NCBI RefSeq assembly: GCF_000337915.1
Contig: NZ_AOJE01000070.1
Coordinates: forward strand, 89,925 to 132,536
Direction: 5' to 3'
DNA from: Halorubrum saccharovorum DSM 1137
Lineage (GTDB): Archaea; Halobacteriota; Halobacteria; Halobacteriales; Haloferacaceae
DNA: 42,612 bases
The number at the start of each line of letters is the position of its first letter. Positions within the stretch are counted from its first letter, which is position 1. The notes beneath the pieces are model-generated. The model searched no databases. It worked only from the letters and a program-made list of their open reading frames with translations, and was not told the origin of the DNA. Of the stretch, positions 40,373 through 42,612 are shown one piece after another. Made by a program: the position numbers and the translations under genes.

Positions 40373-40483
40373 GTCTCGACGTGTCGGGGTGTCGACGTGA
40401 ATCTGCCGGTTCGGAACGGAGAGGCAGGGCGGAGGGCGCGCCGCTTCCGGATCGTTCAATGGCGCCGGCGCGGAGGGATCGGC

Positions 40484-41167
40484 ATGGGAACGCCACTGGA
40501 GCCACGGGAGGAGCAGGTCGAGGAGGTCCTCGACCGGCTGTACGAGGAGTACCCCGATTCGACCATCTCGCTGAACTACTCGAACCGGCTGGAGCTCCTC
40601 ATCGCCGTGATCCTCTCCGCGCAGTGCACCGACGAGCGCGTGAACGAGGTGTGTTCGGATCTGTTCGAGACGTACGAGACGCCCGAAGAGTACGCGAACG
40701 CGCCTCAAGAAGAGCTCGCGGAGGCGATCAACTCGATCACCTACTACAACAACAAGGCGAAGTACATCCGGTCTGCGTGCGCCGATATCGCCGAGAAACA
40801 CGACGGCGAGGTGCCCGACACGATGTCGGAGCTGACCGATCTGGCGGGCGTCGGTCGCAAGACCGCCAACGTCGTGCTCCAACACGGCCACGACGTGGTG
40901 GAGGGAATCGTCGTCGACACCCACGTCCAACGGCTCACCCGCCGGCTCGGGATCACGGAGGAGGAACGCCCAGAGTCGATAGAGCAGGACCTGCTCGAGG
41001 TCGTTCCCGAGAGCGACTGGCAACAGTTCACGCACCTCATGATCGATCACGGCCGCGCGACGTGTACCGCGATCAACCCGGACTGCGGCGACTGCGTGCT
41101 CGCCGACGTGTGTCCCTCGGAGAAGGGCGACGGCGACGTGGACCTGGCGAGCGGCGAGGCGTGGTAA
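40484..41167 (+). CDS. nth: Endonuclease III
   Basis: A 227-residue DNA glycosylase/AP lyase that removes oxidised pyrimidines in base excision repair. The helix-hairpin-helix motif is LAGVGRKTANVVLQHG with catalytic lysine K126, the catalytic aspartate is D145 in VVDTHVQR, and the 4Fe-4S cluster cysteines are C194, C201, C204 and C210 in the standard C-x6-C-x2-C-x5-C spacing. The start is the ATG encoding MGTPLEPREEQ, with a TTCAAT box about 27 bases upstream; the open frame before it is not part of the protein. Length is typical. Confidence 0.97.
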   Translation: MGTPLEPREEQVEEVLDRLYEEYPDSTISLNYSNRLELLIAVILSAQCTDERVNEVCSDLFETYETPEEYANAPQEELAEAINSITYYNNKAKYIRSACADIAEKHDGEVPDTMSELTDLAGVGRKTANVVLQHGHDVVEGIVVDTHVQRLTRRLGITEEERPESIEQDLLEVVPESDWQQFTHLMIDHGRATCTAINPDCGDCVLADVCPSEKGDGDVDLASGEAW

Positions 41168-41246
41168 TCCGGCGCCCGCCGAAGTCCGTTCGTGGCCGGT
41201 CATTCACCGCACAGGCACGTGCGGCCGATTACGGAGAATCGAGGAG

Positions 41247-41280
41247 AAAGCCTCGCGCTTCAGCGCGGGGAGGATGTCAA
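41247..41280 (+). mobile_element. Solo right end of an IS200/IS605 (IS1341-type) element
   Basis: CCTCGCGC (41251-41258) pairs with GCGCGGGG (41263-41270) around the loop TTCA, followed by AGGATGTCAA. From memory this is the right-end hairpin and TCAA terminus found after tnpB genes of haloarchaeal IS605-family elements. No tnpB or tnpA is present: only about 80 bases separate it from the nth stop. The element's end coincides with the stop codon of the regulator at 41277. It may also act as a terminator between the two convergent genes. Confidence 0.55.
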
Positions 41281-41621
41281 TCGGTGCTGTCGCTGAACTG
41301 GACGACGAGTCGTTCGGTGGCGAGGGCGTACACCGTCATCTCCCGGCCCTTCTGGGAGTACCACGTCTTGGTCGGCGTGATGAGGTCGGCTTCGCAGAGC
41401 CGATCGAGGTGGTACGATACGTTCTGTACCGACTGATCGACCGAGTTGGCGATCTCCGACGCGGTTCCGGGATCCGACGTGAGCGTACTCAGAATCTCTT
41501 GTGCCGACTCGGAGGAGAGGACCTGGAGCACGTCGGTAGATTCATCGCGATCGACGACGACGCTCGTTCGTTCGCGGGGAGCGTGGTCGACTGGAGGCTG
41601 GTGTGGGAAGGCGCTTGCCAT
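41277..41621 (-). CDS. Winged-helix (ArsR-like) transcriptional regulator
   Basis: A 114-residue regulator. DVLQVLSSESAQEILSTLTSDPGTASEIANSVDQSVQNVSYHLDRLCEADLI is an ArsR-type winged helix with the recognition helix in QSVQNVSYHLDRL, followed by the wing with TKTWYSQKGREMTVYALATERLVV. No metal-binding cysteine pair is seen, so it is probably not metal-sensing. The start is the ATG encoding MASAFPHQPP; 62 in-frame codons upstream run through the shared promoter and are rejected. Its last codons touch an IS right end (41247-41280). It is divergent from the GbsR-like gene. Confidence 0.85.
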   Translation of the reverse strand: MASAFPHQPPVDHAPRERTSVVVDRDESTDVLQVLSSESAQEILSTLTSDPGTASEIANSVDQSVQNVSYHLDRLCEADLITPTKTWYSQKGREMTVYALATERLVVQFSDSTD

Positions 41622-41687
41622 GGAGTGTTCTGATCTCGTGACTGGACGGTTCAGTTTGTTCGGTACGCTCCGAATGAACGAATCAAA

Positions 41688-41702
41688 CAATTTAATGCTT
41701 AC
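41688..41702. promoter_or_regulatory. Bidirectional AT-rich promoter between two regulators
   Basis: The patch AACAATTTAATGCTT is the only AT-rich stretch between the divergent regulators. Reading plus, TTTAAT is centred about 26 bases before the ATG at 41721. Reading minus, ATTAAATTG would start transcription about 45 bases before the ATG at 41621. Each regulator could control both genes here. Confidence 0.55.
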
Positions 41703-41720
41703 GGAGTCCACGAGGGAGAC

Positions 41721-41774
41721 ATGACACGGCAGGCTGCCCACCACGCGGCGCGGAAGACAGAGAGCCATGAGTGA
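41721..41774 (+). CDS. Leaderless 17-codon upstream ORF overlapping the GbsR-like gene
   Basis: ATG at 41721 lies at the predicted transcription start, about 26 bases after the TATA-like patch. It opens a 17-residue frame (MTRQAAHHAARKTESHE) ending in TGA at 41772-41774, eight bases past the ATG of the regulator at 41767, in another frame. If translated, it would couple to or attenuate the regulator. The peptide itself resembles no family I know. Confidence 0.4.
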   Translation: MTRQAAHHAARKTESHE

Positions 41775-42273
41775 GGAAGACCGCGCCGCCGCGCGCGAGC
41801 GCGTCATCGAGTCGATGGAGCAGTCGGCGGAAGTCTACGGGCTCAGCCGGAGCGCGGGCCGCATCTACGGCGTGTTGTACTTCTCCGAAGAGCCGCTCTC
41901 GATCCCGGATCTCGTCGACGAGACAGGCTACGCGAAGTCGACGATCAGCAACGTCACCCGCACGTTGACGCGGATCGGGATGGTCCGTCGCCGGTCCTCT
42001 GACGGCGGGGGACGGCGCGTTCGCTACACAGCCGTGCGTGAGATCTGGTTCATCCTCCAGGATGTCTTCCAACAGTACGTCCAGCGGGAGATTCAGACGA
42101 CGCTGCGGACGATCCAACGCGCACAGGCCCAACTTCCCGACGGTAACGAACCCGAGACGGAGCAGATCGAGGAACTGCGAGCGACGTACGAGGATCTCGA
42201 AGAGGTCGTCTCGCTCGTCTCGGAGTTCACCGCCGCGGAGCTCCGGGACGCCCTCGAATCCTACGACCGATAG
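41767..42273 (+). CDS. GbsR/MarR family transcriptional regulator
   Basis: A 168-residue regulator. The winged helix spans about residues 20-90: SRSAGRIYGVLYFSEEPLSIPDLVDETGYAKSTISNVTRTLTRIGMVRR, with the recognition helix AKSTISNVTRTL and wing SSDGGGRRVRYTAVREIW. A long C-terminal helical region (100-168, REIQTTLRTIQRAQAQLP...EQIEELRATYEDLEEVVSLVSEF) should mediate dimerisation. GbsR-type proteins often control osmolyte (choline/glycine betaine) genes in bacteria; here the target is unknown. Start: the ATG encoding MSEEDRAAA, inside the upstream ORF at 41721-41774. Confidence 0.9.
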   Translation: MSEEDRAAARERVIESMEQSAEVYGLSRSAGRIYGVLYFSEEPLSIPDLVDETGYAKSTISNVTRTLTRIGMVRRRSSDGGGRRVRYTAVREIWFILQDVFQQYVQREIQTTLRTIQRAQAQLPDGNEPETEQIEELRATYEDLEEVVSLVSEFTAAELRDALESYDR

Positions 42274-42292: not shown

Positions 42293-42450
42293 TCACCAGT
42301 AGACGGTGTACTCGCAGGTGTCGTCTCTCTCGCGACGACAGGCGTCCCCCGTTTCCTCGATGAAGACGAACGCGTCGACGGAGGCGTACCGCCTGGCGAC
42401 GCCGCGGACGAGGCCGCGATCGAACGGACAGGGATAGGGGTTGTGACACG
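42293..42450 (-). pseudogene. C-terminal remnant of a truncated gene
   Basis: A minus-strand frame ends at 42293 with a protein-like stretch: CHNPYPCPFDRGLVRGVARRY, then ASVDAFVFIEETGDACRRER and DDTCEYTVYW. It has four cysteines and real-protein composition, unlike shadow frames. Nothing upstream supplies a start: it runs straight into the IS-type right-end hairpin at 42458-42477. About 50 residues remain. The C-rich end recalls small sensor modules, but I cannot name the family. Best read as a gene cut by the element to its right. Confidence 0.45.
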
Positions 42451-42612
42451 TCAGTGACCCACGACTGAAGCCGTGGGCTTGTCAGTGGACTCCCCTTCTG
42501 CCGCCGAATCGACGGTGGCGGTAAATCCGCCGTTCAGGTTCAGCGTCCCTGACGTCAGCGCACACTGACAGGGTGCGCCTCCACTCGAAGACGTCTGCCC
42601 CGAGTGGAGACG
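42451..42612 (-). mobile_element. 3' end of an IS1341-type (tnpB) element, running off the window
   Basis: A minus-strand frame open to the window edge (53 codons) ends PCQCALTSGTLNLNGGFTAT...STDKPTASVVGH and stops at 42453-42451. The final codons run through a hairpin: CCCACG at 42458-42463 with CGTGGG at 42472-42477. Hairpin-ended tails of this kind are, in my memory, typical of haloarchaeal IS200/IS605 tnpB genes and their overlapping omega-RNA. The zinc ribbon and RuvC motifs would lie beyond the window, so the family call is tentative. A 7-bp direct repeat GTCAGTG flanks the hairpin. Confidence 0.45.

Follow-up and report, generated by a model that had tools for sequence, protein, structure and literature searches.

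In the portions of the literature drawn on here, the closest counterparts of the locus studied are the PATEs of Haloquadratum (Dyall-Smith et al., 2011, PMC3119063), a work that also describes how an element loses its core between palindromes close to its ends. According to that account ISHwa23, a 1500-bp IS605-type element, was reduced to a 52-bp terminal-only form by repeat-mediated deletion. For IS608 (ISHp608), the text of PMC5934647 on the element ends gives a left cleavage site (CL, TTAC) recognized through a left guide (GL, AAAG), a right cleavage site (CR, TCAA) recognized through a right guide (GR, GAAT), and insertion 3′ of TTAC. IS605B stem loops that stand alone with no transposase, some of them reaching into the 3′ end of a gene, are reported from Borrelia plasmids in the relevant section of PMC2775950. 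On the RNA side, the part of PMC8612924 on ISDra2 describes guide RNAs of about 150 nt including some 16 nt of flank, and sot RNAs are treated in PMC12558985, as far as its text was available, as omega-RNAs with a right-end hairpin.

The window (the whole 42,612-nucleotide stretch of Halorubrum saccharovorum DNA analysed here) carries a 52-bp unit between an endonuclease III gene (nth) and a winged-helix regulator gene (Table 1). This unit very probably descends, as a terminal-only form, from an IS200/IS605-type element with tnpB, like ISHwa23 by description. It resembles the Haloquadratum 52-bp PATEs (the ISHwa23 and HqIRS46 core deletions, as portrayed in that source) in its length of 52 bp with the target included, in a probable deletion between repeated near-terminal palindromes, in a TnpB-coding parent of about 1500 bp and, at other copies with empty sites, in the lack of a target duplication. 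It differs in its distribution, here a Halorubrum-containing genus and other genera, with ISHwa23 compared by description only, and the stop-codon text of PMC3119063 is silent on insertion at stops. The parental elements share CL, GL, GR and CR with IS608 as described, and insertion 3′ of TTAC is a further common feature; the mini-element has one hairpin, no GR and no gene. The Borrelia stem loops are likewise lone and without transposase, but there 8 nt of left flank form coding sequence, and the available text of PMC2775950 reports no TTAC/TCAA stop exchange. This kind of element has been known since 2011; the part worth following is the register in which one stop codon takes the place of another.

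Extent, anatomy and copies of the mini-element

A sequence-only reading of the window had described positions 41247–41280 as a tnpB-less IS605 right end fused to the end of the regulator gene. Much of this stood: the stem-loop, the AGGATG tail and TCAA are present at their places, TCAA abuts the 3′ end of the gene, the interval from nth to the regulator contains no tnpB, and the IS605-family origin and the loss of tnpB hold. The start at 41247 and the label of a right end only did not, as the conserved unit begins at the TTAC upstream and its left half matches parental left ends.

These bounds came from a scan of public prokaryote genomes with the exact 34-nt core of 41247–41280, in which records near the window's own may be absent. 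A bounded TTAC-to-TCAA unit was present at all 35 loci recovered, 52 bp long in 29 and 53 bp in six; conservation ran leftward from the core as far as TTAC and ended there, and the DNA outside differed from locus to locus. The genera named among these loci were Halorubrum, Natronomonas, Halobellus, Haloquadratum, Halorhabdus, Halostagnicola and Halomicroarcula, together with MAGs. No tnpB remnant was seen upstream of the unit. A lone right end was considered and rejected on the TTAC boundary, which all 35 exact-core loci possess and which is exact in 53 of 56 units classed as minis.

The hairpin has an 8-bp stem with a TTCA loop and folds as single-stranded DNA, with a stability not clearly above that of shuffled sequences (z = −1.24; 26 of 200 shuffles equally good), and the evidence for it is therefore its recurrence and not its stability. 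Without coding capacity, 52 bp long and bearing one near-terminal palindrome, the unit corresponds to a terminal-only PATE; with no gene, a single hairpin and no GAAT guide, it is not a complete IS200/IS605 element.

Table 1. Features of the mini-element and its two neighbouring genes, in window coordinates.
Feature	Position	Strand	Basis
52-bp single-hairpin mini-element (terminal-only PATE), target tetranucleotide included	41229–41280	+	Conserved block in exact-core loci
TTAC, target and left cleavage site CL; putative former TAA stop codon of the opposite-strand regulator	41229–41232	+	Joined flanks; empty sites of other copies; IS608 CL = TTAC (PMC5934647, text on ends)
Left-end arm GGAGAATCGAGGAG-AAAG; AAAG 41247–41250 = left guide GL	41233–41250	+	Identical arm in parental left ends; IS608 GL = AAAG (PMC5934647, text on ends)
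Hairpin CCTCGCGC-TTCA-GCGCGGGG; parents have one at each end	41251–41270	+	Parental ends; fold
Right-end tail AGGATG-TCAA; TCAA 41277–41280 = right cleavage site CR	41271–41280	+	Parental right ends; IS608 CR = TCAA (PMC5934647, text on ends)
Winged-helix (ArsR-like) regulator gene, 114 aa; TGA stop 41277–41279 inside the element	41277–41621	−	Pfam HTH_20, HTH_5
Endonuclease III (nth), convergent with regulator; ATG 40484 by eye, frame open from 40397	40484–41167	+	Pfam HhH-GPD, EndIII_4Fe-2S on 40397–41167

Within the genus, 57 mini copies were found in 29 of 52 genomes (at most 3 mismatches in 52), 14 of them in the same version as the window's, and a reversed control pattern gave 0 matches in every genus genome under the same mismatch search, which puts the recurrence beyond chance. 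A degenerate form of the mini searched against viral contigs gave 0 matches. The window's own genome holds two copies (L001 and L002) that are identical over 52 bp, and a 28-nt right-end pattern with at most 3 mismatches found no additional right end there. The second copy, L002 (G000:C43:30257–30308), has a 454-aa minus-strand ORF beginning about 65 bp to its left, and to its right no stop-register gene was scored by codon usage (training set with one misframed gene). At L047/L106 (G019:C28) an ortholog of the window regulator has a mini about 145 bp away, at a different site.

To the right of the element, a divergent winged-helix gene pair (window 41277–42273) appeared, by eye, to be retained in several relatives beside differing left flanks, as if it moved as a unit. 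A different IS605-type hairpin, CCCACGACTGAAGCCGTGGG, is found at 42440–42612 and in L177, adjoining a minus-strand tnpB past the window edge; this tnpB, of another type, starts beyond the right edge at G000:C70:132645. The assembly contains N-joined duplicated stretches at the 42440–42612 end, and the adjacent tnpB may be partly a scaffolding artefact.

Full-length relatives and a proposed collapse

Parental elements were sought in the genus genomes by separate queries with 24 nt of the left part and 29 nt of the right part and by pairing ends about 1.5 kb apart among the matches listed. Twenty stretches were inspected, eleven of them picked for ends at about that spacing; 11 of the 20 hold elements of 1497–1500 bp, ten of these with a 426-aa ORF, and the remaining nine comprise five copies of a 346-bp form plus elements of 392, 550, 615 and 1365 bp. 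The ORF of L246, the one scanned, matches Pfam OrfB_IS605 and Cas12f1-like_TNB. A second parent type carries tnpA (126 aa) and tnpB behind a GAGGCG left arm, an arm it has in common with the 53-bp minis.

Parental left ends read TTAC-GGAGAATCGAGGAG-AAAG-hairpin-TGAATCC and parental right ends GGGAAT-hairpin-GGATGTCAA, so that all four IS608-type signals (CL, GL, GR and CR) are present in the parents, and a 21-bp block, CCTCGCGCTTYAGCGCGGGGA, is nearly identical at both ends. The mini is composed of 22 nt of the parental left end, the 21-bp block and then the parental right end, that is, of the parent minus its core. Most parental left ends have TTTA as their hairpin loop, and parental right ends have TTCA; the minis have mostly TTCA and some TTTA, a mixture expected if the exchange fell at varying points within the block.

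We propose that the near-identical 21-bp block shared by the two parental ends, the left one made up of TTAC, 18 nt and the hairpin and the right one of the hairpin, 6 nt and TCAA, provided the repeats for the collapse. A deletion between the two blocks would have dropped about 1.45 kb, including tnpB and the omega-RNA, and its product would be one hairpin with a left arm and a right tail, which the mini-element fits. Two results count against it: at the mismatch limits used, the matches listed for the window's own genome include no parental pair, and no site was found where one genome has a full-length element and a second genome a mini, a comparison of little power because a single orthologous pair of any sort was seen, with both members full-length (L220 and L221).

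The 346-bp form occupies five sites on G017:C2 (L254–L258), lacks a long ORF, is identical at 342–346 of 346 positions and has the same ends. In L254, the one scanned of the five, the 3′ part matches RF02656 with E = 1.4e-17, its 74.3 bits falling short of the gathering score of 88. This form has the look of an element without tnpB in which an omega-RNA is retained.

Stop codons at the insertion sites

The flanks of 12 minis were joined and used as queries against 51 genus genomes, with 6 candidates scored per genome; loci were compared for four of the 12 (L037, L024, L030, and L025), and L051 came from a separate flank comparison. Among the matches listed, six relatives of L037, 90–97% identical, span the junction without the element, with TTAC unchanged in four, and 11 relatives of L024 do the same, with TTAC unchanged in two and altered bases in the rest; TTAC is intact in 6 of these 17. 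No bases are duplicated at the L037 and L024 insertions, which lie 3′ of TTAC. Junctions were altered for L030, L025, and L051. The sequence-only reading had asked for the empty site in relatives; for the window copy none was found, the closest regulator ortholog being 83% identical and having a different left flank.

In the relatives compared for L037 and L024, the right-hand gene (SepF and 3-hydroxyacyl-CoA dehydrogenase, respectively) ends in G-TAA, whose reverse complement contributes the TTAC. The joined flanks of the window give the same G-TAA, and after insertion the opposite strand reads T-TGA from TCAA, the regulator's TGA stop being the reverse complement of the TCA in that tetranucleotide. 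Read from the opposite strand, where they are GTAA and TTGA, the two cleavage tetranucleotides place a stop in the same register. The window protein ends in ...FSDSTD* now and in ...FSDSTE* on the joined flanks; its ortholog in G027 ends in ...HDSTE*, and the orthologs at L105 and L106, which lack the element, end in TD followed by TGA (L106 by eye), which speaks against a special role. Taken together, the flanks suggest insertion into the stop codon of the window regulator, with the stop restored by TCAA. Insertion 3′ of TTAC, as seen at other copies, would here have fallen on the regulator's TAA codon, and TCAA, being TTGA on the opposite strand, would have returned an in-frame stop while changing the end of the protein from ...STE to ...STD. 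The regulator appears undamaged because the stub brings its own stop signal.

This register was then counted across loci with a codon-usage score on the 240 nt to the right of each site, requiring a gene in exact register and open for at least 50 codons. Such a gene was found beside 12 of 55 minis, 7 of 40 other right ends and 15 of 558 background TTAC sites (Fisher p against background = 5e-7 for the minis and 3e-4 for the other right ends), counts that omit one mini and two other right ends with short flanks. Among right flanks scored as coding, the figures were 12/17 for minis, 7/10 for other right ends, and 15/159 for background. A laxer rule gave 14 of 55 minis against 16 of 558, although two of the 14 (L088 and L240) had open frames of fewer than 20 codons. 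The 558 background sites were taken from the window and 35 eight-kb loci, many of them in accessory DNA that the codon model handles poorly (398 of 558 had no coding frame), and the enrichment therefore does not separate target choice from survival. Elements that land within genes would be expected to disappear, and survival alone could thus produce the stop-codon pattern.

The last codon changes from NNG to NNT in 21 rows, with the former base deduced from TTAC and three rows having short or doubtful frames; the change is synonymous in 19, and GAG becomes GAT in L024 and L230. All eight mini neighbours scanned contain a Pfam domain, these having been picked for long open frames with L023, L025, and L237 left out, and the genes include sepF, deoxyhypusine synthase, methylmalonyl-CoA mutase and a class-V aminotransferase; beside full-length copies a Pfam domain was found in one of two genes scanned. 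What appears to be new here is that TTAC is often the TAA stop of the right-hand gene, with TCAA returning an in-frame TGA. A literature search that covered few subscription papers found no published equivalent of such a stop-for-stop insertion.

Mobile unit, terminator or guide RNA

On balance, we consider the mini-element to be probably an immobile scar, because the IS608-type right guide GAAT would have been lost. The main alternative is that the 52-bp unit is itself mobile, a Y1 TnpA acting in trans to excise and insert it with one hairpin serving as both ends, which we regard as possible though the less likely of the two. The copies are dispersed and in part identical, as the 14 of one version illustrate, and recent spread of the mini fits this at least as well as old scars do. 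Precise empty sites exist for some minis, a Y1 TnpA is encoded in 41 of 51 genus genomes, and nine of the 18 mini-bearing genomes among G000–G033 have no full-length pair (ends paired by eye, among the matches listed). Six strain-specific copies in Haloquadratum were all of 52 bp, which in the wording of the passage on them in PMC3119063 “may indicate” mobilisation.

Against mobility stands the loss of a guide. In IS608, as its ends are described in PMC5934647, each cleavage site is recognized via its own guide; in the mini the parental right guide GAAT is missing and the left guide AAAG occupies its spot. Among 42 right ends that lack a left arm, 38 have GAAT directly ahead of the hairpin; in 52 of 56 minis the tetranucleotide there is AAAG, the latter partly by construction since the class is in part defined by the left arm, and both sets are collected loci deduplicated by right flank and no census. 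Two loci depart from this division: L213, classed as non-mini, has TTAC and AAAG and is probably misclassed, and L231 has TTAC 25 nt before GAAT. With CL, GL, one hairpin and CR retained and GR gone, the mini is predicted to be cleaved poorly at its right end. The two subfamilies of 52 and 53 bp match the two parental left-end types, and both loop types, TTCA and TTTA, are present in the minis; repeated collapses would give both patterns. Moreover, a Y1 TnpA match is absent in 4 of the 29 mini-bearing genomes (G015, G019, G028, and G034, the last 79% complete). G019 has a full-length-type pair of ends 1428 bp apart. A broader proposal, that TTAC/TCAA elements use stop codons as a protein-silent niche (NNG TAA to NNT TGA, synonymous for fourfold-degenerate codons) and that the single-hairpin stub may still transpose without a right guide, is offered tentatively and seems to us less likely than not as a whole.

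A role in RNA is far less plausible. The hairpin sits between the convergent nth and regulator genes and might have been retained to terminate transcription or to stabilize the mRNA 3′ end of either one, as the sequence-only reading had entertained in its suggestion of a borrowed terminator. This is improbable: a consensus scan not made for archaea found 0 terminator-like sites in 41100–41400, the stem is followed by AGGATGTCAA and not by a T run, and among the 29 relatives' regulator loci compared a like motif lies nearby only in L106 and L111, at other places.

Least credible of all, at a very low probability, is the proposal of the same reading that the unit is the solo 3′ end of an omega-RNA used in trans by a TnpB elsewhere. 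Its appeal lies in ISDra2, where bases beyond the right end serve as guide (PMC8612924, in its account of that element), in the 13 tnpB places of the window's own genome (14 match rows, two overlapping in one gene), and in sub-threshold matches of the minis to Rfam HgcC (27 and 24.3 bits, where the gathering score is 50; E = 0.012 and 0.065), a family to which several tnpB elements in the set also have weak matches. None of the 13 tnpB places has the mini's right end beside it (at most 3 mismatches), and the same sequence occurs at many sites unrelated to tnpB, the observation that the reading itself had named as refuting it. RF02656 (sot0042) has no match in either copy of the genome at E up to 0.1 and matches two parents with 160 bits (L246) and 166.5 bits (L253); it is also without a match in the other scanned tnpB elements L163, L176, and L177, and its absence from the minis alone therefore proves little. 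The stronger argument is anatomical, in that about 30 nt of right end remain behind a left end, compared with about 150 nt in ISDra2; of the omega-RNA, whose scaffold lies upstream of the right-end hairpin, just the last hairpin is kept. Judged by its sequence, a solo guide role for the mini is unlikely, and the stub, having no omega-RNA scaffold, most likely serves as neither guide nor terminator.

Lone IS605-like hairpins in archaea can be two fused ends and are not to be taken for solo guide RNAs. With the mini-element one could also ask by experiment if a single hairpin is enough for Y1 transposition, a question left from 2011. Finally, the replacement of stop for stop is a simple rule that would let elements sit against conserved genes without visible harm.
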